A DNA stretch of 64,000 bases from a bacterium. Lineage in GTDB: Bacteria > Auribacterota > UBA3054. Below the pieces are notes generated by a model. The model was not told where the DNA came from. It did no database searches and saw only the letters and a program-made list of their open reading frames with translations. The position numbers and the translations under genes were made by a program. Each line of letters starts with the position of its first letter. The stretch's first letter is position 1. This document shows positions 32,991-63,867 of the stretch, in pieces. The stretch covers positions 1 through 64,000 of the forward strand of contig JAGCTE010000040.1 of assembly GCA_017963805.1 (NCBI GenBank), read 5' to 3'.

Positions 32991-33435
32991 AAGATTGAAG
33001 ATCCTTATAGTCCTTTTGACGCTGCTAATAGGCGGCTGCATGCTGCCGAGGATGTTCGTGGCGGCCTTCATTCCGTTCCAGAGGCTGATGATCTGGAGCG
33101 CGGCGATGGGAGCCCGCTACGGCGCGCCTTTGGTAATGCTTTTGGTGGACGCCTCGCCGGAAGCCGAGCCGTACAAAGTCCAAGGAGAATTTCCGGAACC
33201 CTATCTTGCGGACGAGCCGGCTACTCCCGAATTCCTGGCTCAAAGGGAAGATCTTGTGAAAGTCTACATTTTCAGGGGCGAAAACTTGAGCGAGGAGCGC
33301 TACAGAAAGATACTGCTTGACGCCGCGATGAACGGGCAAACGCTTTGCGCCGTGCCTTTGGCGGCTGAAGATATCCCCCGCGTAAAAGAAACGCTTGCTC
33401 AAAACGGCGTCGAACTTGAGGAGGGCGAACTGTGA
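32983..33435 (+). CDS. Predicted small lipoprotein or membrane protein, unknown function
   Basis: 150 residues, starting at a GTG that overlaps ruvX by eight bases. The signal-like N terminus ends in the lipobox IGGC (Cys19), followed by a second hydrophobic stretch (about 25-52). The C-terminal ~65 residues (VKVYIFRGENLSEERYRKILLDAA...) look like a small alpha/beta domain. I do not recognise a family. It overlaps the next gene by four bases, so the two are probably made together. Confidence 0.7.
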   Translation: MPKRLKILIVLLTLLIGGCMLPRMFVAAFIPFQRLMIWSAAMGARYGAPLVMLLVDASPEAEPYKVQGEFPEPYLADEPATPEFLAQREDLVKVYIFRGENLSEERYRKILLDAAMNGQTLCAVPLAAEDIPRVKETLAQNGVELEEGEL

Positions 33436-34442
33436 AATTTTTCTTTTTCCTAGTTGTTCTGGCTTTGCTGGGAATCTTTTTGGCCTACAGATATCAGGAG
33501 GCGCACCCTGAAAAACAGGGGATCTTCAGTTACGATCTGAAGGAGAAGGAAAAAGAAAGCACCATCACTCCTCCTTCCGTTTACCGCGTGCTCGAGGCAA
33601 ATTCGGCGGACCGCTTCATCGTGCTCCGCAACAACGTGGAGACCCAGAATTTCCACCTGGTCGGCCTGATCGGGATCCCCTCTGACGGGAAAGACGTTTT
33701 CGAGTGCGGGAAAAGCGCGGAGGAGCTGAAAGCTCTGAGCGCCAAAGGGCTCGCTTTCGCCAAAGACCTTGTGGTCGGCAGGTCCGACCTCCACGTCAGG
33801 GAAAGGAACAGGGAGCACAAAGGGGAAACGCTCTTAGTTGAAGGCGACATCCTTTTGACAAACGGCGTTTCCCTGTCGGAACTGGTCATCAAAAACGGCT
33901 ACGCCAAGAGCGACCCGGACGCCGTGACGGATTACGAGGGTTTTGAAAAGGAGGCCAGGCGGAAAGAAAAAGGCGTTTGGTCCAATTCCGTTCCCTTGAA
34001 AGACCGCTTCAAGGTATCCTCGAGCATAAGGCAGAAGGGTTTGACCAGGGACAGTCACGCCCAGCAGGCCTCAATGACCAAGGATATCCTTGAAACGGTC
34101 GCCAGCGAGGAACGCTGCGTCACGGTCGATCTCGACATTTTCGTCAAGCCTCCCATGACCAGGAGCTACGAGCTTATGGTCATATGCGACTACGGCATGG
34201 ACGAAATTATGGGAGCCGACGAGGGCGGGGAGAAGAGGGTCCAAAAAGACACGGAACACACCAAGGAAATCCTGAAGCTGACGACCTTAACGACCAATCT
34301 CAGCCTGAGGTCCTCCGCTTTCGAAATGAGCAAGATCACAAAGGGCGGACGCACTTTCAGGCAAGGCATCTTTTGCTCTTCCTGCGTGTTAAGAGTCTTT
34401 TTGGAGGGCGAGGAGATCCACTTTGACGAGGGCAAATTTTAA
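33432..34442 (+). CDS. SNase-like (thermonuclease-fold) secreted protein with altered active site
   Basis: 336 residues with an N-terminal membrane anchor or signal (1-20). Residues about 58-185 resemble a staphylococcal nuclease domain: FHLVGLIGIPSD in the place of the usual RLIGIDAPE, LVEGDILLTNGVSLSELVIKNGYA, and FEKEARRKEKGVWSN, the family ending. The canonical catalytic arginine in YGRTLA is not visible (here HKGETLL), so activity is doubtful. The last ~130 residues are not recognised and contain cysteines. Domain call is by eye. Confidence 0.6.
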   Translation: MKFFFFLVVLALLGIFLAYRYQEAHPEKQGIFSYDLKEKEKESTITPPSVYRVLEANSADRFIVLRNNVETQNFHLVGLIGIPSDGKDVFECGKSAEELKALSAKGLAFAKDLVVGRSDLHVRERNREHKGETLLVEGDILLTNGVSLSELVIKNGYAKSDPDAVTDYEGFEKEARRKEKGVWSNSVPLKDRFKVSSSIRQKGLTRDSHAQQASMTKDILETVASEERCVTVDLDIFVKPPMTRSYELMVICDYGMDEIMGADEGGEKRVQKDTEHTKEILKLTTLTTNLSLRSSAFEMSKITKGGRTFRQGIFCSSCVLRVFLEGEEIHFDEGKF

Positions 34443-34515: not shown

Positions 34516-37500
34516 ATGATGAATGGGACGAATATCAAAATTACGAGACCTGCCGGCGTGGCGCTCCTGGCGGTCCTGACGATCCTGACGGTCCTCTCCC
34601 TTTTGGCCGGCAGCTTCGCGGTGTCGATCTCGATCGACGAGAACGCCTCCCGCCAGACTCAGGCTGAGCTTGGCTTGCGCATGCTTTACCAGAGCGGCGC
34701 CGCCCACGTCAAATCCGCGCTTATGAGCGCCGCCATGACGGAAACGAAAAGCCCGGGCGAGATGCTCTCGCAGACGAAAGCCCTCCAGCCGGCGACCAAA
34801 GACGGCTTCGGCCCCTGGGTGTACGTTAAGAACGAGAACGGCGACGCCATCGGACGCTACCGCGTCAAAGTCGAGGACGAAGCCGCCAAGCTCAATATCA
34901 ACAAAGCCTTCCTGACCGAGAAATCCCAGGGTTCCGGCTGGGACACCGGCGAAGTTTCCATCCCCGACGCCCTGGGTGTCACGGTCGCCACGGCCAAGGA
35001 CCTCCTCAAGTACAAATACGGCCTGAACAATGTGCCCGGCGACAGGGGAGACGACGACCAGAACAACGCCCTTTTGATGACGGACGGCCTTGACAACAAC
35101 GCCAACGGCGTCGTAGACGAGTACGACGAAGGCGTCAACGATCCCGGCGAATACCTGCCGAGCCGCCCGAGAGGCGACGACCGCGCTTTCTCCACTTTGC
35201 GCGAAGTGATGCCCTTTTTGCTTACCTCCGACAACTTCAAGAAGCTTTCCGAAGCCAGCCAGGAACGCGCGGTCAGGGAGCTTTACAAGAGGGCGACGCT
35301 CTATTCCACCGACATGCCGGGCAGCTCGACGCTTCCCAACGACCTGCCGTCCGAGATCAACAGTATCACCGGCTCGGAACTGAGGAAGCGCCTCAACTCT
35401 ATGCCGAATCCCGTCGAGGGCCAGTCGAGGGCGAGAAACCAGCTGGCGGCCAACATGATCGACTACCGCGACGAGAACCACGTCATGACGACTTTGGGCA
35501 GCGACATCTACGGCGCGGAAGCCATCTGCTTCAACGAAGTTTTGGCGAACGAAGACTCCATCACCTTCTGGGTCAGGGACTCTTCCGCGACAGACGGCCT
35601 TGTCAGGGACTGGGTGAAGCCCAGATACTGGGAAGACCAGTACGATTCCAGGGACAACAGCCGCCTTCTGCACTGCCCCCTGTGGTACTACTGCTGCATA
35701 ACCGACAAGGTCATCAACAACAAGCTTTTCTGGCACCATTCCATCAGGATGAACAACACCTGGAAAGTCATCAATTCAGGCAACTCATCCAAGGGACACA
35801 TCAACATCAGCAACGGTTCCTTCGGCCTGCCGGACGGCCCCGGCGAAGCCCAGTCCTCCGCCAACCCGCGCTTCTTGAACTGCGACGGCGACGCCTGGGG
35901 CGGCAGCAGCCCGAGCCAGAGCTACCGCGACACCTACGTAAAGCTCATAAGCATGATGAGCAAGCGCGGCAAAACGGAAAGCGGCGCGGTCAGGTTCGAC
36001 GACAACATGTTCAAAAACATGTACGTCGTCATCTGGGCCTGGCGCGGCAACAAGCAGCTCGGCCAGTTCAAAGTCACTTCCTCTTCCAAAAGCGGCAACA
36101 TAAAGTTCAGCACCTCGGAAGTCGATTCAGGCAGATCCCTTAACTCCATCTGCCAGGCCGAGGGCATCACCAACGGCCAGTCCCTGGCCGTAAGCTTCCT
36201 GGCCTGGTCGCAGGGCATTTCCGCCATTCTCCCGAAAGTCAACTGGTACCACTGCGTCAGAAGACCGGACGGCGCCGGGCGCTACTACAAGGTTATGATC
36301 ACCAACGACCCGGTCGACTCCTTCAAAGGCTACAACTGCCGCACGCTCGGAGTCACCGGCAACGCCAGCAACGAGCACACGATCCTTGAGGATGACAAGG
36401 CCTGGGAATACAAGGACGGCAAGCCTCAGAAAGTCGACGCCACCGGCTGGATGGACATCATCGTCAAGTCGTCCGAGAAGGTCAATCACAGCACCAAGCA
36501 GTACCAATCCCTCGGCTACCTAAGGCTGATCGCCCCGGAAGTCGTCGAGATGTACAACGCCTCCGAAACGGCGGTCTCCCTCGCGAACTGGAAGGTCGTC
36601 TGCAACACCGGCACCTTGGCGACCGAGATCGGCAACATCAGAAGAACGACCTACTACGACAACAAGGCCGGCGGACGCATCGTGGACGACAACCCCGCGG
36701 TCATGCCGAGAAACCACTTCTATCTCGTCAACGACGCCGAGCTTTTCGACATGCGTTACGGCAACGGCGACATGCTCTGGGGCTCCGCCGCCACCGAAAG
36801 GATCCCGGTCTTCGAGATGGACTCCAAGCACTGGGGCATCTCTTTCAAATTAAAGAAAGTGACGCACGGCGACACGGAATACTATTACTACATTGACAGC
36901 GGTCAGACGGTCCTCGACAAGAAGCTGTTCCAGGGCGAATCCATCCGCCTCATCTACAAAGGCGAAGAGGACAACCCGAGATCCTGGCACGGCCGCATCT
37001 TCCCGCTGCTTTGGTGGGAAGACGAGGACGGCAAGCGCATCAGAGTCTGGAACGAGTACGCCCGCTACAACGTCAACACGCCTCCCGTCAAGAACTGCGA
37101 AGTCATGTTCCTCGGCCTGCCGGCCCGCGGCGGCATCGTCTCCCTGACTTTGAAGAATGAGTACAACCAGGTCACGGCCCGTACCGTCGAATACGGTTCG
37201 GTCGACGTCAAGGAAAAAGGCTACAGCACCGAGAAAGAGGATCCGACCCACTACAAATGGATCAAGCGCGCCAACCCGACCATAGGCGGGACCGAGGATC
37301 TGGCCCTCAACACCGTCATGCGCGCCAAGAAGAATCGTCCGACCTGGATCAAGAATGGACCTTTCGGCAGCGTTGCCGAAATGGGCATGGTAAGGACCGC
37401 CAGAGACTTTGAGAACTTAGGCTCCGCCGGCGGCGAAGCGAGCGGCAAGATGAAAGTTGCGACGCTTGCCGACTACTTCTGCACCGGATCGCTGCGTTTG

Positions 37501-38610
37501 AACGCCGTGGACGGCAACGTCGAAGTCAAGGGCTGGGAACCCAGCAAATTCGAAGTCGAGAGATATGACGCGGCCTCGATCTCGGCTAAGGACGCGAAGT
37601 GGGAAGTCGACCAGTGGAAAGGCCATACGCTCCGCTATCTCACCGGCCCGATGCGCGGCGAGACCTTCGCCATCCACGGCAACACGGCCAGCAGCCTTAA
37701 GCTTGTCGCCGAGGACAACCGCAACAGCCCGAGATCCGTTCCCCAGCGCCTCATAAACAAGCCCAACAAAGGCGACGAATTCACAGTGGGCCCCGGATAT
37801 CTGACGCCCGTGTGCTACACCAGGAAAGCCAACCAGGAAGGCGAATGGGTCTGGCACGACGCCATTCCCGTCAAGGGAACGTACAACCTTTACGTTTACG
37901 GCCTGAACGACGCCATTTCCACGACGGAATTCCTCGAGGAGAACTACAACGCGAGCCTTGACGTCGATCTCTGGAACTACACTACCGGCGACTGGGACAA
38001 TCTCTGCAAACGCAAAAAATACAACAAGGAAGACAGCTTCCTGGCCGGCAAGATCACGCCTGACCACATCTCCGTCAACGGCGACATCAAGATGCGCCTG
38101 ACGCCGCACGACGTCATCGACACGACGAAGGCGTACGCGGAAGCGGCCGCCAGAGGCGAGATCAACCAGCCTTACCGTTCCGGCTACGCCTGGTTCAACT
38201 ACGTCATGATAAGCCCTGTGCCGGTCGTTGGCAGGATCAATTTCAACACGGCCACCAAGGAGCTTCTTGCCGCGCTGCCGGGCATCACGCCGGTCCTTGC
38301 CAACAACATCGCGGAAGGCCTGGACGAGAACGGCAAGCCGACGCTTAAGCCCTACAAGACGCCCAGCGACATCCTTAAAGTCAAAGGCATGAAGCTCGGC
38401 AACTACAGGCGCTTCGCCAACCTCGTCTGCATCGACTCTTACGTTTACACCGCGAAGATCGAGGCCGAGCTCTTCGACGACGTGGACCACGACGGCGTCT
38501 ACACGCCCGAGGTCGACCACCAGAGCGCCAACGGCTTGAGGCACTATATCCTGAAGAGCAACCCCGGCTCCGACATCGAGCACTGCATTGAAGAACTGGA
38601 GGAATTCTAA
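34516..38610 (+). CDS. Giant GspK-like minor pseudopilin with split lamin-tail domain
   Basis: 1364 residues, about four times the length of E. coli GspK. The N terminus (RPAGVALLAVLTILTVLSLL) is a prepilin-type segment cleaved after Gly and lacks Glu5, as GspK does. A calcium-loop-like stretch at 190-202 (DGLDNNANGVVDE) follows. A lamin-tail-like start (ICFNEVLAN, 337-345) is separated by ~330 residues from its matching half (VEMYNASETAVSLANWKV, about 677-694). The C terminus has a helix-hairpin-helix block (GRINFNTATKELLAALPGI, from 1239) and another DxDxDG-like loop (DDVDHDG). It may start at ATG 34516 or 34519. trxA overlaps its stop by one base. Confidence 0.75.
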   Translation: MMNGTNIKITRPAGVALLAVLTILTVLSLLAGSFAVSISIDENASRQTQAELGLRMLYQSGAAHVKSALMSAAMTETKSPGEMLSQTKALQPATKDGFGPWVYVKNENGDAIGRYRVKVEDEAAKLNINKAFLTEKSQGSGWDTGEVSIPDALGVTVATAKDLLKYKYGLNNVPGDRGDDDQNNALLMTDGLDNNANGVVDEYDEGVNDPGEYLPSRPRGDDRAFSTLREVMPFLLTSDNFKKLSEASQERAVRELYKRATLYSTDMPGSSTLPNDLPSEINSITGSELRKRLNSMPNPVEGQSRARNQLAANMIDYRDENHVMTTLGSDIYGAEAICFNEVLANEDSITFWVRDSSATDGLVRDWVKPRYWEDQYDSRDNSRLLHCPLWYYCCITDKVINNKLFWHHSIRMNNTWKVINSGNSSKGHINISNGSFGLPDGPGEAQSSANPRFLNCDGDAWGGSSPSQSYRDTYVKLISMMSKRGKTESGAVRFDDNMFKNMYVVIWAWRGNKQLGQFKVTSSSKSGNIKFSTSEVDSGRSLNSICQAEGITNGQSLAVSFLAWSQGISAILPKVNWYHCVRRPDGAGRYYKVMITNDPVDSFKGYNCRTLGVTGNASNEHTILEDDKAWEYKDGKPQKVDATGWMDIIVKSSEKVNHSTKQYQSLGYLRLIAPEVVEMYNASETAVSLANWKVVCNTGTLATEIGNIRRTTYYDNKAGGRIVDDNPAVMPRNHFYLVNDAELFDMRYGNGDMLWGSAATERIPVFEMDSKHWGISFKLKKVTHGDTEYYYYIDSGQTVLDKKLFQGESIRLIYKGEEDNPRSWHGRIFPLLWWEDEDGKRIRVWNEYARYNVNTPPVKNCEVMFLGLPARGGIVSLTLKNEYNQVTARTVEYGSVDVKEKGYSTEKEDPTHYKWIKRANPTIGGTEDLALNTVMRAKKNRPTWIKNGPFGSVAEMGMVRTARDFENLGSAGGEASGKMKVATLADYFCTGSLRLNAVDGNVEVKGWEPSKFEVERYDAASISAKDAKWEVDQWKGHTLRYLTGPMRGETFAIHGNTASSLKLVAEDNRNSPRSVPQRLINKPNKGDEFTVGPGYLTPVCYTRKANQEGEWVWHDAIPVKGTYNLYVYGLNDAISTTEFLEENYNASLDVDLWNYTTGDWDNLCKRKKYNKEDSFLAGKITPDHISVNGDIKMRLTPHDVIDTTKAYAEAAARGEINQPYRSGYAWFNYVMISPVPVVGRINFNTATKELLAALPGITPVLANNIAEGLDENGKPTLKPYKTPSDILKVKGMKLGNYRRFANLVCIDSYVYTAKIEAELFDDVDHDGVYTPEVDHQSANGLRHYILKSNPGSDIEHCIEELEEF

Positions 38611-38930
38611 TGAGCGGATTACCACTTACCAAAGACAATTTCGAAGCGGAAGCCCTGAAATGTGAGGGCGCTGTCATAATCGATTTCTGGGCCACCTGGT
38701 GCGGACCGTGCAAGGCCTTCATGCCAATCGTGGAAGCCTTCGCGAATGAACACCCTGAGATCAAGTTTTGCACGGTGAACGTCGACGAGGCCCCGGAGAT
38801 CGCCGAACGCTACGAAGTGATGAGCATACCGACTTTGGTGTTCCTTAAAGGAGGGGAGTTGAAAGAGATCTCCGTCGGCTCCCTTCCTCCCAAAGTCCTC
38901 GAGGAAAAAGCCGCGAAAGCCTTCGCATGA
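38610..38930 (+). CDS. trxA: Thioredoxin
   Basis: 106-residue thioredoxin with the active site WCGPC (Cys31, Cys34), FWATW before it and the cis-proline motif MSIPTLVFLKGG. No signal peptide, so it is cytoplasmic. It overlaps the giant pseudopilin gene by one base and the next gene by four bases, but the chain of overlaps alone does not show a shared function. Confidence 0.95.
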   Translation: MSGLPLTKDNFEAEALKCEGAVIIDFWATWCGPCKAFMPIVEAFANEHPEIKFCTVNVDEAPEIAERYEVMSIPTLVFLKGGELKEISVGSLPPKVLEEKAAKAFA

Positions 38931-42419: not shown

Positions 42420-44135
42420 ATGGCATCTGAAGATCTTATTCTGGATATTTTGCTTGAACAAGGCAAGATCACACAGGAGAATATTGACAAGTGTCGCGAC
42501 AACCTCGGCGTCAGGGCCAACACAATGCTTGAGCTTCTGTGCCTTGACGGCGTCATCAAGGAAGAGGAGCTGGTCGCCTTTTTGGTCGACTATCTCTCCG
42601 TTCCTTCCGTGACACTCTCCGACAACACTATCCCCCCCGAAGTAATCCAGTGCGTCCCCGGCGATTTCGTCAGAAAGAACCATCTCATGCCTTTCAAACT
42701 GGAAGCGAACACGCTTACGGTCGGCATGGTGAACCCGATGGATGTGGACGTGGTAGATAACCTGACCGTCGAACTTAACAAGAATCCCCAGACTCAGGGC
42801 ATTTCCGTCGAGACCGCCATCGCCGGCCCCATCGACATCCAGAATGCCATAGACCTTTACTACCGCGGACAGCAGTTCGAGACGGCTGTTAGCGAAGCGG
42901 AAGAAGGGGATTACAGTGAAGCGCTGAAAGGCATAGGCAACATCTCGGGCGGCGAGGGCGAGGACGAAGCCCCGATCATTCGTTTCGTTTCCGCCATCAT
43001 CACCCAGGCCTACCGCATGCGCGCTTCCGATATTCACATTGAGCCTCTTGAGAAACGCATTCGTATCCGCTACCGCATCGACGGCGTTTTGAAAGAGATG
43101 GAATCGCCCCCGAAGAGACTGCAGGGCCCCATCATGTCGCGTTTGAAAATTATGTCCGGCATGAACATGGCCGAGCGCAGGATCCCTCAGGACGGCCGTA
43201 TTAAATTCAAAGTCGACAAGGTGGTCCTTGACCTGCGCGTCTCGAACCTCCCCGGTACGCACGGCGAATCGGTGGTCATGCGTATTCTGGACAAATCCTC
43301 CCTGATGCTCGGTCTAAGTGAACTGGGCTTCCTTGACGAGGACGAGAACACCTTCCGTCACCTGATCTCGATGCCTAACGGCGTGCTTCTGGTGACGGGC
43401 CCCACTGGTTCCGGCAAGACCACGACGCTTTACGGCTGCTTGAACTTCCTCAACAAACCGGACGTCAAGCTGATCACCGTGGAAGACCCTGTCGAATACA
43501 TGCTGGGCGGCATCAACCAGGTCCAGGTCAACGACGAGATCAACTTCACGTTCAGCCACGCCCTCCGTTCCATTCTGCGTCAGGCCCCGAACATCATCAT
43601 GGTCGGCGAGATCCGAGACAGAGTGACGGCTGAGATCGCGACCCAGGCGTCGCTTACGGGACACCTGGTCTTCTCGACGCTGCACACCAACGACGCTCCT
43701 TCCGCCATTACCCGTCTTATAGACATGGGCGTGAAACCCTTCCTTGTGGCCACGTCCGTCATCGGCGTCATGGCCCAGCGTCTCGCCCGTACCGTCTGCA
43801 AGAACTGCGCCTGCGAATACGTTCCGGACCCCCAGGTCTGCAAGGTGATGCACCTTTCCGACGAGTACATCAAGAGTCACAAGTGGATCCACGGCGCCGG
43901 CTGCGAAGTTTGCAACGGCACCGGCTACAAAGGACGTAAAGGCCTTTTCGAGATCATGGTCGTTAACGACGCAATCCGCAGGCTCGTCTACGAGTGCGTG
44001 CCGGCCAACGAGATCCGCGCCGAAGCCCGCAAGAACGGAATGGCCACGCTGCGCGAGGACGGTCTTAAGAAGGCCGAGCGCGGTATCACGACGCTTGAGG
44101 AAGTCTTGCGTATAACCGCGGTCGACGAGGCCTAA
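42420..44135 (+). CDS. Type II secretion/type IV pilus assembly ATPase (GspE/PilB), first copy
   Basis: 571-residue AAA+ motor. An N-terminal MshEN-type domain (1-150) precedes Walker A GPTGSGKTTTL, the ASP box MVGEIRD region and Walker B-like motifs (IIMVGEIRDRVTAEIA), then HLVFSTLHTNDAPSAITRLIDMG. A zinc-binding insert with CKNC and CEVC pairs follows (about 460-510). Start: weak ribosome binding (ACAAGAAAA). The second ATPase starts 15 bases after its stop; only one GspF follows both. Confidence 0.93.
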   Translation: MASEDLILDILLEQGKITQENIDKCRDNLGVRANTMLELLCLDGVIKEEELVAFLVDYLSVPSVTLSDNTIPPEVIQCVPGDFVRKNHLMPFKLEANTLTVGMVNPMDVDVVDNLTVELNKNPQTQGISVETAIAGPIDIQNAIDLYYRGQQFETAVSEAEEGDYSEALKGIGNISGGEGEDEAPIIRFVSAIITQAYRMRASDIHIEPLEKRIRIRYRIDGVLKEMESPPKRLQGPIMSRLKIMSGMNMAERRIPQDGRIKFKVDKVVLDLRVSNLPGTHGESVVMRILDKSSLMLGLSELGFLDEDENTFRHLISMPNGVLLVTGPTGSGKTTTLYGCLNFLNKPDVKLITVEDPVEYMLGGINQVQVNDEINFTFSHALRSILRQAPNIIMVGEIRDRVTAEIATQASLTGHLVFSTLHTNDAPSAITRLIDMGVKPFLVATSVIGVMAQRLARTVCKNCACEYVPDPQVCKVMHLSDEYIKSHKWIHGAGCEVCNGTGYKGRKGLFEIMVVNDAIRRLVYECVPANEIRAEARKNGMATLREDGLKKAERGITTLEEVLRITAVDEA

Positions 44136-44150
44136 AAAGGAGAACAATAT

Positions 44151-45845
44151 ATGGCATTTGATATTGAAACTTTAGGTCAAGCTCTGATAGATTCCGGCAC
44201 TGCGACCCAGGAACAGATCAACGAGGCCGTGCAGGAAGCGACAGCCAACGGCGTTCCCGTCGAGGTCGTTCTGGCCCAGAAGAACATCGCGACGGCGGAG
44301 CAGATCCACGAAGCGGTCTCGATGGCTTACGGCATGCCGTTCGTCACCCTTGATTACAAGCACATTCCCGAGGATGTTCTCGACCTTATCACGCCTTCTT
44401 CGGCGGAACTTTACCGCGCCATTCCTTTCAAACGCGAGGAAAACGGCGCCGTTAGTGTCGCCATGGCCGACCTTGAGAACCTCTCCGCCGTCGACACCAT
44501 CCGCTACAATCTTGGCGTCGACGTCACTCCCGCTCTGACGACCGACGACCAGATCGAAGCGGTCCTGGAAGGATACTATAGAAAGAAAGCCGAGTCCCTG
44601 GACGAGCTGATCAACGACCTGGCGGCCCTGAAGCCCGAGGAACTGGCCGAGGACGAAAACTCCGCCCAGGCCCAGAGCGGCCCTGTCGTCAAGCTGCTCG
44701 AGCTCATATTGGTCCAGGCTGTGAAAGACGGCGCTTCCGACGTGCACTTCGAACCGTTCGAAGACGTCTTCAAGATCCGCTACCGTGTGGACGGCTCGCT
44801 TTACGAACTGGTCCCGCCGCCGAAATCCCTGGCCCCGGCTCTTGCTTCCCGTATCAAAGTTATGGCAGGCCTTAAGATCGCCGAAAGGCGTCTCCCTCAG
44901 GACGGACGTATCACGGCCCGCATCGCCGGCCGCCAGATCGACCTGCGCGTCTCCACTCTGCCGACCATGTTCGGCGAATCGGTGGTGGTGCGAATCCTTG
45001 ACCGCGAGGCGGTCAAGCTCGATCTGCGCAACCTCGGCTTGGAAGACGACGTCAGGGAAAAACTGACCGAGATCATTTTGAGGCCGAACGGCATCGTTTT
45101 GGTGACCGGGCCTACCGGCTGCGGCAAGACCACGACGCTTTACGCTTGCTTAGCCAGGATCAACGACATCGAATCGAAAGTCATTACCACGGAAGACCCG
45201 GTGGAATACGACGTGGAAGGCGTTGTCCAGGTGCCGATCAACGAAGCGGTCGGCCTTACTTACGCCAGATCCCTTCGTTCCATTCTGCGTCAGGACCCCG
45301 ACCGAATCATGGTGGGGGAGATCCGCGACTTGGAAACGACCCAGATCGCCATTCAGGCTTCGCTGACCGGCCACTTGGTTTTGTCCACGCTGCACACGAA
45401 CGACGCGCCGACGACCATCACGCGTCTTATCGATATGGGCACCGAGCCCTTCCTTATCGGCTCCACCCTCCAGTGCGTCGTGGCCCAGCGTCTTATCAGG
45501 AAGATCTGCCCGTTCTGCAAGGAAGAGTACAAGCCGACTCCGGAAGAGCTGAAGCGTCTTGACCCGCAGCATCCGGACGCCTACGGCGACGTCAAGTTCT
45601 ACCGCGGCACCGGCTGCCCGCACTGCAACAACTCGGGCTACCGCGGCCGCACCGGCATCTACGAGATGCTCGAGATCAACGACGAACTGCGCGACATGAT
45701 CAACGACCGCGCGCCCGCGACCGCTTTGCGCGACAAGGGCCGCGAGCACGGCATGCGCAGCCTGCGCGAGGACGGCATCCTTAAGATCAAACGCGGCATC
45801 ACGACCATTTCCGAAGTCTGCCGCAGCACGATCGCCCACGGTTAA
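44151..45845 (+). CDS. Type II secretion/type IV pilus assembly ATPase (GspE/PilB), second copy
   Basis: 564 residues, related to but clearly diverged from the gene before it. N-terminal MshEN-type domain, Walker A GPTGCGKTTTL, RIMVGEIRDLETTQIA, LVLSTLHTNDAPTTITRLIDMG, then zinc pairs CPFC and CPHC and EDGILKIKRGITTISEVCR at the end. AAGGAG lies upstream. Tandem GspE-type ATPases are unusual; one may be a PilB-type extension motor and the other its partner. Confidence 0.93.
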   Translation: MAFDIETLGQALIDSGTATQEQINEAVQEATANGVPVEVVLAQKNIATAEQIHEAVSMAYGMPFVTLDYKHIPEDVLDLITPSSAELYRAIPFKREENGAVSVAMADLENLSAVDTIRYNLGVDVTPALTTDDQIEAVLEGYYRKKAESLDELINDLAALKPEELAEDENSAQAQSGPVVKLLELILVQAVKDGASDVHFEPFEDVFKIRYRVDGSLYELVPPPKSLAPALASRIKVMAGLKIAERRLPQDGRITARIAGRQIDLRVSTLPTMFGESVVVRILDREAVKLDLRNLGLEDDVREKLTEIILRPNGIVLVTGPTGCGKTTTLYACLARINDIESKVITTEDPVEYDVEGVVQVPINEAVGLTYARSLRSILRQDPDRIMVGEIRDLETTQIAIQASLTGHLVLSTLHTNDAPTTITRLIDMGTEPFLIGSTLQCVVAQRLIRKICPFCKEEYKPTPEELKRLDPQHPDAYGDVKFYRGTGCPHCNNSGYRGRTGIYEMLEINDELRDMINDRAPATALRDKGREHGMRSLREDGILKIKRGITTISEVCRSTIAHG

Positions 45846-45891: not shown

Positions 45892-47013
45892 ATGAGCACT
45901 GCTCCAAAAAAGAAAAGCAAATTCGGCGACATCCGAATCGGCGGTCAGAAAAAGGCCACTGTTGCTGACATCGCGTTGTTCACGCGTCAGCTGGCCACGC
46001 TTCTCGACGCGGGTCTGCCCCTGGTCAGAAGTATCAGATTGCTCCAGCAGCAGCAGCCCCCCGGAACCCAGCTGGGCTCCGTTCTGAAGGAAGTCGTGGC
46101 CGGCGTGGAAAGCGGCAAGACCTTCTCGGACTCCCTTTCCAAGTTCCCGAAAGTCTTCGACGCCCTTTTCGTCAACATGGTGCGCGCCGGTGAGGCCGGC
46201 GGCGTCATCGAGACCGTACTTAACCGTCTGGCGGACTTCAGCGAAAAGAGCGAGAAACTGAAAAAGCGCGTGAAAGGCGCCATGACCTATCCTATCGTCA
46301 TTTTGACCATCGCCATGCTGGTCTGCGTGCTCTTGCTGGTCTTTGTCATTCCTAAATTCCAGGGCATGTTCGAACAGCAGGGCAACAAAATGCCTTGGAT
46401 CACCCAGACTCTTATCGACCTTTCCCACGGTTTGGTCAACATCTTTAAGAGCCCCATCAAACTCGTCATCGTCGCGGCTGTCATCTTCGTCATCGTGACG
46501 CTCTGGAAGGCCTTCAAGCGTTCCAAAAGCGGCGCTTACATGATCGACAGATTCCTCATTTCGGCGCCGGTCTTCGGCACCCTGATCAGGAAGTCCATCA
46601 TCGCCCGCTTCACCCGTACCCTGGGCACACTTCTGAACGCCGGCGTCCCCATTCTGCAGGCTCTCGACATCGTGAAAGACGCTGTGGGCAACCTGGTCGT
46701 CGCCAGAGTTATCAACAAGGTGCACGCCTCCATCAAAGAGGGCGGATCCGTTACCGAGCCCCTGGCTGAGTCCGGCATCTTCGACGGCATGGTGACAGGT
46801 ATGTTGTCTGTCGGTGAGGAAACCGGCACGATGGCCCCGATGCTCCTCAGGATCGCCGACACTTACGACGACGACGTGGACTCCGCGGTCGACAGCTTGT
46901 CCTCCATCATCGAGCCGTTGCTGATCGTCTTCCTGGCCTTGATCGTCGGTACCATCGTTATCGCGATGTTCCTGCCGATGACCGCCATGTTGAAAGGCGT
47001 CGGCGGCGTCTGA
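45892..47013 (+). CDS. Type II secretion/type IV pilus inner-membrane platform protein (GspF/PilC)
   Basis: 373-residue platform protein with two repeated GspF domains and three hydrophobic segments. The first repeat is FTRQLATLLDAGLPLVRSIRLL and the second FTRTLGTLLNAGVPILQALDIV; EEGGSVTEPLAESGIF and SVGEETGTMAPMLLRIAD are typical. AGGAGG precedes the start. A good terminator follows 25 bases after the stop and ends the ATPase-platform unit. Confidence 0.95.
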   Translation: MSTAPKKKSKFGDIRIGGQKKATVADIALFTRQLATLLDAGLPLVRSIRLLQQQQPPGTQLGSVLKEVVAGVESGKTFSDSLSKFPKVFDALFVNMVRAGEAGGVIETVLNRLADFSEKSEKLKKRVKGAMTYPIVILTIAMLVCVLLLVFVIPKFQGMFEQQGNKMPWITQTLIDLSHGLVNIFKSPIKLVIVAAVIFVIVTLWKAFKRSKSGAYMIDRFLISAPVFGTLIRKSIIARFTRTLGTLLNAGVPILQALDIVKDAVGNLVVARVINKVHASIKEGGSVTEPLAESGIFDGMVTGMLSVGEETGTMAPMLLRIADTYDDDVDSAVDSLSSIIEPLLIVFLALIVGTIVIAMFLPMTAMLKGVGGV

Positions 47014-61557: not shown

Positions 61558-62124
61558 ATGAAACAGACTGTTAACAAGGGTTTCACCCTCATAGAGATCT
61601 TGGTGGTCATCAGCGTTATCGGCATCCTTTCAACGCTTTCCGTGGGCGTCGCGACTGTCGCCAAAGCGAGGATCAAATCCTCCGCCGCCGAAGCCGTCAT
61701 CCAGCGCCTTGAGCTCGCTCTCAGCCAGTACCACAACGATTTCGGCTGTTATCCTCCGACCGGCAGCGACGCCGCCGACAACTCCGTTATGATCGGCTGC
61801 CTGACCGGCGACCTCAACATGGACGGCAAGTACACCGGCGACGAAGGCGACATCCCGTCCAACCACCCCCGCTGGAAAAAGCCCTACATCGACATCGACA
61901 AGAGCTTTCCCGTCAGAGCCGGCAAGCTCATGGACCCCTGGGACGTTCCTTACCGCTACTGGGAAAACCAGAGGGAATGCCCCCGCTGCCCCTACAACGG
62001 CAACATGTATCTCTTGTATTCCTGCGGCCCCGACAACAAGGCGACCGAGATGACAAGGGACGAAGTAATCGATTTCGGCGCGGACTACAACCGCGACAAC
62101 ATCATAAACTGGATCATCGAATGA
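61558..62124 (+). CDS. Type II secretion pseudopilin (GspG-like), first of five
   Basis: 188-residue secreted pilin-like protein. The prepilin peptidase site is Gly8|Phe9 in KGFTLIEILVV, with Glu5 conserved. The mature part has YHNDFGCYPPTGSDAADN, a GspG-like Tyr/Pro pattern, and DPWDVPYRYW, the calcium/GspG signature. It is separated from the next pseudopilin by 29 bases including a GAGGAG site. Confidence 0.85.
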   Translation: MKQTVNKGFTLIEILVVISVIGILSTLSVGVATVAKARIKSSAAEAVIQRLELALSQYHNDFGCYPPTGSDAADNSVMIGCLTGDLNMDGKYTGDEGDIPSNHPRWKKPYIDIDKSFPVRAGKLMDPWDVPYRYWENQRECPRCPYNGNMYLLYSCGPDNKATEMTRDEVIDFGADYNRDNIINWIIE

Positions 62125-62153
62125 TCAAGAAAAAACCCACTGAGGAGTCAAGT

Positions 62154-62636
62154 ATGAAACGCATCCAAGGTTTTACCTTAATTGAACTGCTCGTTGTTAT
62201 CGCCATCATCGGCGTACTCAGTACGCTCGGCGGCGCCGGCGCTTCCATGGTCCAGAAACAGGCCAAGAAGACTCAGACCGCCACCATTATGCAGAACGTC
62301 TCCCTTGCGTTGGAACAGTACAAGACCGACATGGGCATCTATCCCCAGACCGACGATCCCAAGGAGATCGCGAACGCTCTCACCGGCTTCACGGATGAGC
62401 CCGACAAGCGCGATGAAAAATATTACAAGAACCCCAACTGGAAGGGCCCCTACTACACGACCGAGCCCAAAGCCTTTTACCGCCGCCAGAACAACCAGGC
62501 CATAGCCGACGCGTGGGGAAATCCCTTGAATTTCAACATCCTTGCCCCGAAGCTCAATCCTTATAAGTTCGACATGTGGTCCAGCGGCCCCGACGGCAAC
62601 AACGACAATGGTCTCAAGGACGACGTCAGACCGTAA
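62154..62636 (+). CDS. Type II secretion pseudopilin (GspG-like), second of five
   Basis: 160 residues from ATG 62154, chosen for the GAGGAG site 7 bases upstream. Prepilin cut Gly6|Phe7 (IQGFTLIELLVV) with Glu5. The mature part repeats the GspG theme: YKTDMGIYPQTDDP, DAWGNPLNFN and WSSGPDG. It is a paralogue of the first pseudopilin. Either may be the major pseudopilin. Confidence 0.9.
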   Translation: MKRIQGFTLIELLVVIAIIGVLSTLGGAGASMVQKQAKKTQTATIMQNVSLALEQYKTDMGIYPQTDDPKEIANALTGFTDEPDKRDEKYYKNPNWKGPYYTTEPKAFYRRQNNQAIADAWGNPLNFNILAPKLNPYKFDMWSSGPDGNNDNGLKDDVRP

Positions 62637-62653
62637 CTGAAAAATATAGCGCA

Positions 62654-63265
62654 ATGAACGAGAATCGCCCTAGATATAGCGGTTTCACGCTGATGGAACT
62701 TCTGGTAGTGATCGGCATTATCGGCGCTATCAGTTCTATCGGCGTGGTGAGCTTCTCCGCGGTCGGACGCAACATGCGCATCGAGAGCGCGGCGAACGCC
62801 ATCAAAGACCGTATCTTCTATGCGCGCACTTCCGCCATCACCCAGCGAAGGAAATTCGCGATCCGCATGACCGTCACGCCGACCAGGAAAGTCTGGAAGC
62901 TTCAGACCTTCGACTCCGGCTCCGACAACGTCATCGACTACGAGAATGACCTTACCGTCGACACCAGGCCCTACTATCTCGACCATCGCCTGAACATCAA
63001 AGCGGAACCGCCCATAGAGATCGAATTCTCTCCGGAAGGAGGGATCACCTACGCCTCCCACAACCCGATCGTGATAGAAGACAAGACAGATCTCCAGGAG
63101 ATCTGGGAGATGCCTGTTCAGATCTACAAAGCGGCGGGTATCGCGCGAGTAAAACCAATCAACCGCATTTTCCCCGACGACAACAAGCAGGTGCAGGCTA
63201 AGGCCGCCGAAAGCAAGCAGGTGGAAAGTGAGGACGCAGCCTTCGAGGCCCTAGGACTTGACTAA
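62654..63265 (+). CDS. Type II secretion pseudopilin (GspH-like), third of five
   Basis: 203 residues from ATG 62654. Prepilin cut Gly10|Phe11 (YSGFTLMELLVV) with Glu5. The pattern SIGVVSFSAVGRNMRIESAANAIKDRIFYARTSAITQRRK is GspH-like (helix then Arg-rich bend). The rest is not assigned. It overlaps the next gene by one base. Confidence 0.82.
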   Translation: MNENRPRYSGFTLMELLVVIGIIGAISSIGVVSFSAVGRNMRIESAANAIKDRIFYARTSAITQRRKFAIRMTVTPTRKVWKLQTFDSGSDNVIDYENDLTVDTRPYYLDHRLNIKAEPPIEIEFSPEGGITYASHNPIVIEDKTDLQEIWEMPVQIYKAAGIARVKPINRIFPDDNKQVQAKAAESKQVESEDAAFEALGLD

Positions 63266-63867
63266 TGAAAGAAATTAAGACATACGGTTTCAGCTTGATC
63301 GAGATCATGGCCGCGCTGGCCATCCTCTCCATTGGCATGAGCAGTATCATGGCTGTCTTCCCGGCCGGCATGGAGTCTTTCCGCAAGGCCAGGGACAACA
63401 CGGTCCTTGCCAACCTTATGCGTTCTAAGGTCAGCGAACTGACCTACGAACTGGGAAGCCCCATCGGCCGCGGCGACAACGCCACCAGGATCGCCAAGCA
63501 CTACCTGAAGGCCGACACGGCTTTCGCCCGCTACATGTCTGAGGACGACAAGTCGAAGCGCACTTCCACCCCCGTTATGGTCTCGGAAGTTTATCCCTTC
63601 GAGCAGAACCCCCGTTATTTCTGGCAGTACACGGTACATGACATCGGCAGGGAAGGCGACACCAAAATAGGCGAAAAAGGCGTCAAGGGCGTCTTCTTCC
63701 AAATAGAGATGAACGTTTACGACCGTTCGCAGATCCAGGAGGAGCTCGTTCCTCTTGATCATTCAAGAGTCAAGGAAGACCAGGTCAACAAACCGATCCT
63801 GCGCCAGATCTTCCGAGTACATAACCCTTATCCGGCGATAACCTATGGCAAGAACGCTAAGAAGTAA
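63265..63867 (+). CDS. Type II secretion pseudopilin (GspI-like), fourth of five
   Basis: 200 residues. Prepilin cut Gly8|Phe9 (YGFSLIEIMAAL) with Glu5; AILSIGMSSIMAVFPAGMESFRKARDNTVLANLMRSKVSEL fits GspI/PilV-type minor pilins, where a short N-terminal helix is followed by such a repeat. It overlaps the fifth pseudopilin by 23 bases. Confidence 0.78.
   Translation: MKEIKTYGFSLIEIMAALAILSIGMSSIMAVFPAGMESFRKARDNTVLANLMRSKVSELTYELGSPIGRGDNATRIAKHYLKADTAFARYMSEDDKSKRTSTPVMVSEVYPFEQNPRYFWQYTVHDIGREGDTKIGEKGVKGVFFQIEMNVYDRSQIQEELVPLDHSRVKEDQVNKPILRQIFRVHNPYPAITYGKNAKK

Follow-up and report, generated by a model that had tools for sequence, protein, structure and literature searches.

Structure of the K1 locus

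The 64,000-nucleotide window analyzed here (GenBank assembly GCA_017963805.1, contig JAGCTE010000040.1, positions 1 to 64,000) carries on its forward strand a giant gene that we call K1. Its paralogues in the same genome are K2 to K5. The open reading frame (ORF) of K1 starts with the ATG at 34516, ends with the stop at 38610, and encodes 1,364 amino acids (aa). An earlier, sequence-only reading had described a GspK-like pseudopilin with a split lamin tail domain (LTD), marked by ICFNEVLAN at residues 337 to 345 and VEMYNASETAVSLANWKV at about 677 to 694; the ORF and both motifs are as described. That inventory was right about the split LTD and the helix-hairpin-helix (HHH) tail. It omitted a second insert (about residues 753 to 862), a domain resembling carbohydrate-binding modules (CBMs) at 988 to 1236, and the multigene family to which K1 belongs. 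The genomes compared are metagenome-assembled genomes (MAGs) throughout, and the phylum sample comprised 44 of them. Taken as a whole, with the exchangeable tips discussed below included, our best explanation is that K1 is a GspK-type minor pseudopilin carrying a large head, and we hold it with moderate confidence.

Table 1. Features of K1 and of the pilus-related genes in the window
Feature	Position	Strand	Evidence
K1, giant GspK-like pseudopilin gene	34516..38610	+	ORF; four dispersed paralogues in own genome; same-genus orthologues 81-94% identical
Prepilin-type leader, expected cleavage after Gly14 (ITRPAG/VALLAV), no Glu at +5	34516..34557	+	Family alignment
GspK-like N-terminal scaffold, residues 14-335	34555..35520	+	NCBIfam NF037980 GspK, residues 14-136, E 6.1e-9
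Calcium-loop-like DGLDNNANGVVDEYDEG, residues 190-206	35083..35133	+	Asp/Asn/Glu/Gly positions at least 90% conserved, 62 sequences
LTD piece 1, first strand ICFNEVLAN, residues 333-346	35512..35553	+	Lamin structures align from 332-334; splice test
Insert 1 in LTD, residues 347-668, variable CBM-like beta-sandwich with nested module	35554..36519	+	Separate model; structure matches
LTD piece 2 (VEMYNASETAVSLANWKV...), residues 669-752	36520..36771	+	Pfam LTD 668-700; lamin structures
Insert 2 in LTD, residues 753-862	36772..37101	+	About 50 positions match module nested in CBM
LTD piece 3, residues 863-899	37102..37212	+	Lamin structures align to residues 894-899
CBM6/35/36-like jelly roll, residues 988-1236, nested module about 1018-1065	37477..38223	+	Structure matches
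HHH domain (GspK/ComEA type), residues 1240-1301	38233..38418	+	HHH_3 E 2.3e-10; ComEA 8dss Z 9.9, root mean square deviation (rmsd) 1.8
Second calcium-loop-like stretch DDVDHDGVYTPEVDH, residues 1323-1337	38482..38526	+	Similar stretches in paralogues
Thioredoxin gene, start overlaps K1 stop by one base	38610..38930	+	Pfam Thioredoxin E 5.6e-26
Two GspE/PilB-type assembly ATPase genes	42420-44135, 44151-45845	+	T2SSE E 2e-135, 4.9e-140; MshEN domains
GspF-type platform protein	45892..47013	+	T2SSF E 2e-62
Pseudopilin operon G, G', H, I	61558..63867	+	N_methyl, T2SSG, GspH-type matches; ORFs

GspK is the only pseudopilin of the type II secretion system (T2SS) known to lack Glu5. K1 begins with the prepilin-type leader ITRPAG/VALLAVLTILTVLSLLAGSF, and its family shares the leader and the hydrophobic helix and lacks Glu at +5. 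The cleavage Gly was invariant in all 63 family rows covering the leader, and position +5 was A, M, T, or S. The GspK model NF037980 matched not only K1 but also K2 (E value, 4e-15) and relatives (up to 67 bits). On K1, Pfam found the HHH_3 domain, the second LTD piece (18.6 bits), and a weak T2SSK match. This T2SSK match is below the cut-off in K1 and above it in a relative (L123), and the C-terminal domain of K1 is of the HHH/T2SSK kind. A profile also matched the XcpX structure 5vtm at an E value of 1.3e-4. Together with the orthologues that follow GspJ elsewhere, the leader, the NF037980 match, and the HHH tail bear out the GspK-like identity and the tail proposed from the sequence. GspK was absent from the matches listed in a structure comparison of the AlphaFold model, which is no evidence against this identity because other domains fill the list.

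The lamin tail domain is interrupted twice

The AlphaFold model covers residues 111 to 1310 and was built with 62 sequences (predicted local distance difference test [pLDDT], 81; predicted template modeling score [pTM], 0.77). The tail structures of lamin A/C and lamin B1 aligned over K1 residues 332 to 899, with 106 to 114 of 107 to 118 residues matched and Z scores of about 9. The K1 LTD has the Ig-like beta-sandwich of the lamins, and 1ifr (lamin A/C) aligned across both inserts (110 of 113 residues; Z, 9.0; rmsd, 3.0). We then removed residues 349 to 667 and 753 to 861 in silico. The Pfam LTD score rose from 18.6 bits (profile positions 22 to 48) to 27.2 bits (6 to 48), as a single match crossing the join; both scores are below the PF00932 gathering score of 34.3 bits. 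Three paralogues spliced in the same way gave LTD matches of 26 to 28 bits that started at profile position 6 or 7 and reached 73.

Both LTD pieces, 279 to 408 residues apart, were kept in all 70 aligned members covering both sites. The 71st row (L025) starts after the first piece at a contig end and was left out of the count. The first piece is 67 to 89% identical among paralogues. The spacing between the pieces is 288 to 337 residues in the window genome, 118 to 191 in seven genomes of other families, and 23 in one family. The 23-residue value, from the outgroup L122, rests on the phylum alignment only; a joined LTD profile found no LTD in L122, and this spacing is therefore weaker evidence than the others.

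The conservation in 70 members, the gain on splicing, the lamin structure alignment, and the graded spacings establish that the LTD pieces of K1 are one domain, interrupted twice, and the spacing of the pieces is not due to chance. The sequence-only reading had taken the two pieces on either side of about 330 residues for one domain; the predicted structure puts both in a single domain, and both are lamin-tail. By structural alignment, K1 shares the fold of the lamin tails (1ifr; lamin B1, 3jt0), but its LTD is broken by about 320 and 110 residues. The graded series (23, 118 to 191, and 279 to 408 residues) is a clear example of one domain being inserted into another step by step.

The inserts and the C-terminal jelly roll resemble carbohydrate-binding modules

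The domains of K1 are nested, with the LTD inside GspK and the variable insert 1 inside the LTD. Modeled alone, insert 1 reached a pLDDT of 80 and a pTM of 0.85 and folded independently in the prediction. Its best PDB matches were CBM35, MiXBM, and CBM36, with Z scores of 7.6 to 6, which lie below 8 in the range where chance likeness is common. A profile comparison of insert 1 with the C-terminal CBM region scored 38.5, and the maximum from 60 column shuffles was 21.8. The corresponding insert of a relative (L126) has a weak Pfam galactose-binding-like match (E value, 0.03). Probably, though not certainly, the CBM-like unit occurs twice in K1, with insert 1 as the additional copy.

The C-terminal region (residues 988 to 1236) has the CBM jelly-roll fold. 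It matched MiXBM (7ehg) with a Z score of 11.3 over 126 of 134 residues, and CBM6 and CBM35 with Z scores of 10.1. Insert 2 resembles the short module nested in this CBM (hhalign P value, 3e-6) and had no significant profile similarity to insert 1. Matches to Cry toxins, Eph receptors, and further jelly-roll structures were taken as shared fold only. A Foldseek search with the 1,200-residue model returned long matches only, which were spurious; the domain matches came from a second structure comparison.

The modeled CBM-like folds suggest sugar binding, and carbohydrate is a putative ligand. The binding head that the sequence-only reading thought plausible thus has candidates in these folds and the variable insert, with binding itself a prediction. 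The same reading had noted flanking calcium-loop-like stretches, and by sequence likeness two are present (Table 1). The loop at residues 190 to 206 may bind calcium; calcium sites are known in XcpX (PMC6211770).

K homologues follow the pilin genes in other families

The pseudopilin operon of the window consists of G, G', H, I, and J (61558 to 64555), with GspJ starting at 63845 and extending beyond the window. In the window's order this operon ends at GspJ without a K gene, and K1 lies 23 kb upstream. The synteny of K1 with the two GspE-type ATPases and GspF, 4 to 8 kb downstream, is kept throughout the genus. The two full-length GspE/PilB genes stand head to tail, before GspF. In eight genomes from other families of the phylum, a homologue of 0.9 to 1.3 thousand aa lies directly after the pilin genes, which are arranged G-G-H-I-J in six. 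The sequence-only reading had proposed looking for the gene beside secretion genes, and a homologue is there in these eight genomes. Because the homologues directly follow pilin genes, the giant K is, as judged from sequence and gene order, the GspK of the phylum. In the window's order the gene moved out of the operon and multiplied, whereas GspI and GspJ each remained single in all seven genomes in which they were found.

The window genome encodes three GspE and two GspF proteins, secretins, PilM/PilN, a GspM-like protein, and a single prepilin peptidase. On contig C46 (L105:12548-13996), the GspM-like domain is fused with a PDZ domain, and the gene adjoins PilM/PilN and the third GspE. No PilT-type retraction ATPase was found among the three T2SSE hits in three genomes of the window's genus; G008 to G014 have extra T2SSE hits in frames of about 360 to 400 aa. 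In another family (L126:222-12079 and L124), a T2SS-like operon includes a PilT-type ATPase beside GspE, GspF, and G-G-H-I-J-K.

Such a machine could serve secretion, and the main rival to our explanation is that K heads are specificity receptors. Each would capture different exoproteins in the periplasm, such as glycoside hydrolases destined for secretion, and load them for export instead of making contact outside the cell. The T2SS-like character of the machine, the lack of a PilT-type ATPase among the hits just described, and the GspM-like protein with its PDZ domain are in keeping with this. However, no cargo is tied to any K gene, the neighbors of the paralogues are housekeeping genes, and the CBM-like folds point to glycans over proteins, though such folds bind proteins too. 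We consider secretion receptors unlikely.

K genes form a family in the order

The five members in the window genome, K1 to K5, are scattered among housekeeping genes. Several K genes occur in each of the 14 other genomes from this order. The JAUVKG MAG has at least 14 distinct ones and JAOZNZ at least 12 (counted at one model position); copy numbers of K genes are lower bounds. GspI and GspJ occur once each in seven genomes that carry from 5 to many K genes. In a tree, K1, K2, K3, and K4 each clustered with orthologues from other ruminant MAGs. These stable orthologous groups across the genus indicate that the repertoire is stable and not cassette switched. K5 (1,002 aa) has a very long branch and an unsure position in the tree. 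The K1-like subfamily is richer in cysteines (mean, 14.8 versus 10.6).

Within four genomes, identity among K proteins is 44 to 52% in the scaffold and 49 to 59% in the HHH domain, and only 18 to 29% in insert 1. This pattern bears on the idea of a DNA-capturing tip, in which the LTD and HHH would be the DNA-binding parts of an uptake pilus. The HHH domain is structurally closest to ComEA, and LTDs are mentioned in papers on secreted bacterial nucleases returned by a literature search. However, an HHH/SAM-like C-terminal domain is normal in GspK, the T2SSK models match the same place, and the most variable part of K1 is the CBM-like sandwich, which is unexpected in a DNA receptor. A DNA-capturing tip is therefore very improbable.

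The K proteins might also be no filament subunits at all but giant envelope proteins that work on their own, either periplasmic or surface exposed, and have merely borrowed a prepilin leader. The copies in the window's order are indeed dispersed from the pilus genes, and K5 lost the HHH domain. Against this, homologues sit after GspJ in operons elsewhere in the phylum, the leader, scaffold, and HHH domain are kept at 44 to 59% identity among paralogues, and the synteny of K1 with GspE and GspF is kept in the genus. We regard this alternative as quite unlikely. K5 itself (L012:8890-11898, contig C69) kept the leader, the split LTD, and the CBM-like part, and it lost most of the GspK alpha-domain along with the HHH tail.

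A proposed set of exchangeable tips on one pseudopilus

We propose, only tentatively, that the order turned the single T2SS tip protein GspK into a set of giant tip proteins encoded at dispersed loci, from 5 to at least 14 in each genome. These would be exchangeable on a shared GspI-GspJ pair, and each would show its own CBM-like head, nested in an LTD that lies within GspK. The sequence, the domain nesting, the conservation, the copy numbers, and the operon position in relatives ground this proposal, and from them we infer cleavage, tip location, tip exchange, and ligand binding. The K1 leader would be cut after Gly14 by the single prepilin peptidase of the genome. Once freed, the helix may associate with GspI and GspJ at the tip of a pseudopilus built by the GspE, GspF, and GspG of the cluster. 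In line with proposals for GspK, the GspI-GspJ-K1 complex would prime the pseudopilus, whose end would display the head. In this arrangement, the scaffold (N-terminal domain and HHH) would display the LTD, and the LTD the variable CBM-like sandwich, with the second CBM-like domain adjacent. Since GspI and GspJ are single copy, whereas the window genome has five K-type genes and a relative at least 14, alternative K proteins could cap the same pilus with different ligand specificities. The ligands would most likely be glycans or polysaccharides; judged by the CBM-like folds, glycans come first.

Several points weigh against this explanation. The NF037980 score of K1 (35.8 bits) is far under the curated cut-off of 130 bits, and K1 is therefore not filed under this equivalog. 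The GspK fold of the N-terminal domain is predicted from sequence and synteny, the structural model spanning residues 111 to 1310. The CBM-like folds are structural likenesses, with no Pfam CBM match in K1 at E values up to 0.1, and the Z scores of insert 1 fall in the low range given above. The divergence of insert 1 could also reflect weak constraint. Most K paralogues are not beside pilus genes. Finally, three fragmented MAGs (G009, G012, and G014) yielded neither GspI nor GspJ, so the single-copy count rests on the seven genomes.

Comparison with known systems

K1 resembles GspK/XcpX (5vtm and 3ci0) in the leader without Glu5, the N-terminal similarity, the HHH tail, and, in its relatives, the position as the last pilin gene after GspJ. 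Like K1, GspK has an additional domain within its pilin fold (PMC8179133), and it is placed at the T2SS tip (PMC8179133 and PMC6211770). K1 differs in being four times longer, with LTD and CBM-like domains inserted, and in the window's order the gene is out of the operon and multiplied. Very large GspK-like proteins also include the Verru_Chthon cassette protein A (TIGR02600; a model of 1,296 positions). K2 matched this model N-terminally at 47.6 bits, the best score, and relatives matched at the N or C terminus; K1 was not listed, and all matches were confined to end regions and below the cut-off of 332.3 bits. Verru_Chthon A stands in A-B-C-D cassettes, whereas K genes stand singly, and the 8 kb around those K copies with flanks of that length contained no pilin-like genes. 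Our literature search found no paper on Verru_Chthon and none linking LTDs with pseudopilins.

Two known systems make exchangeable tips plausible. In the Streptococcus sanguinis pilins PilB and PilC, a small pilin scaffold bears an adhesive binding module that is probably located at the tip (PMC8179133). There the module is grafted at the end, whereas the K1 domains are nested within one another. The Kil pilus of Myxococcus xanthus, of the Tad class, has four interchangeable tip complexes with variable domains on one pilus (PMC12075869). Kil swaps whole co-encoded complexes, whereas the K family multiplies the GspK-type subunit alone. GspK, modular pilins, alternative tips, and very large GspK-like proteins are thus already known. 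What is new is how the domains are nested, how this nesting is graded across the phylum, and that only the GspK-type subunit has multiplied.

The constant scaffold, the divergent insert, the many copies, and the single GspI and GspJ together bear on how T2SS and type 4 filaments acquire tip specificity. In Pfam scans the N_methyl pilin model missed the K proteins; such tips are therefore probably under-counted and would probably escape a survey based on N_methyl.

Other genes next to K1

K1 had no PHROGs match, and a phage origin was rejected. The one-base overlap of K1 with the downstream thioredoxin gene, which is of the cytoplasmic type, is kept in the K1 orthologues L021 to L025 and L041. 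Upstream of K1 lies an SNase-like gene (33432 to 34442) that is 42 to 72% identical to its counterparts and diverges faster than most syntenic neighbors in the same genus.

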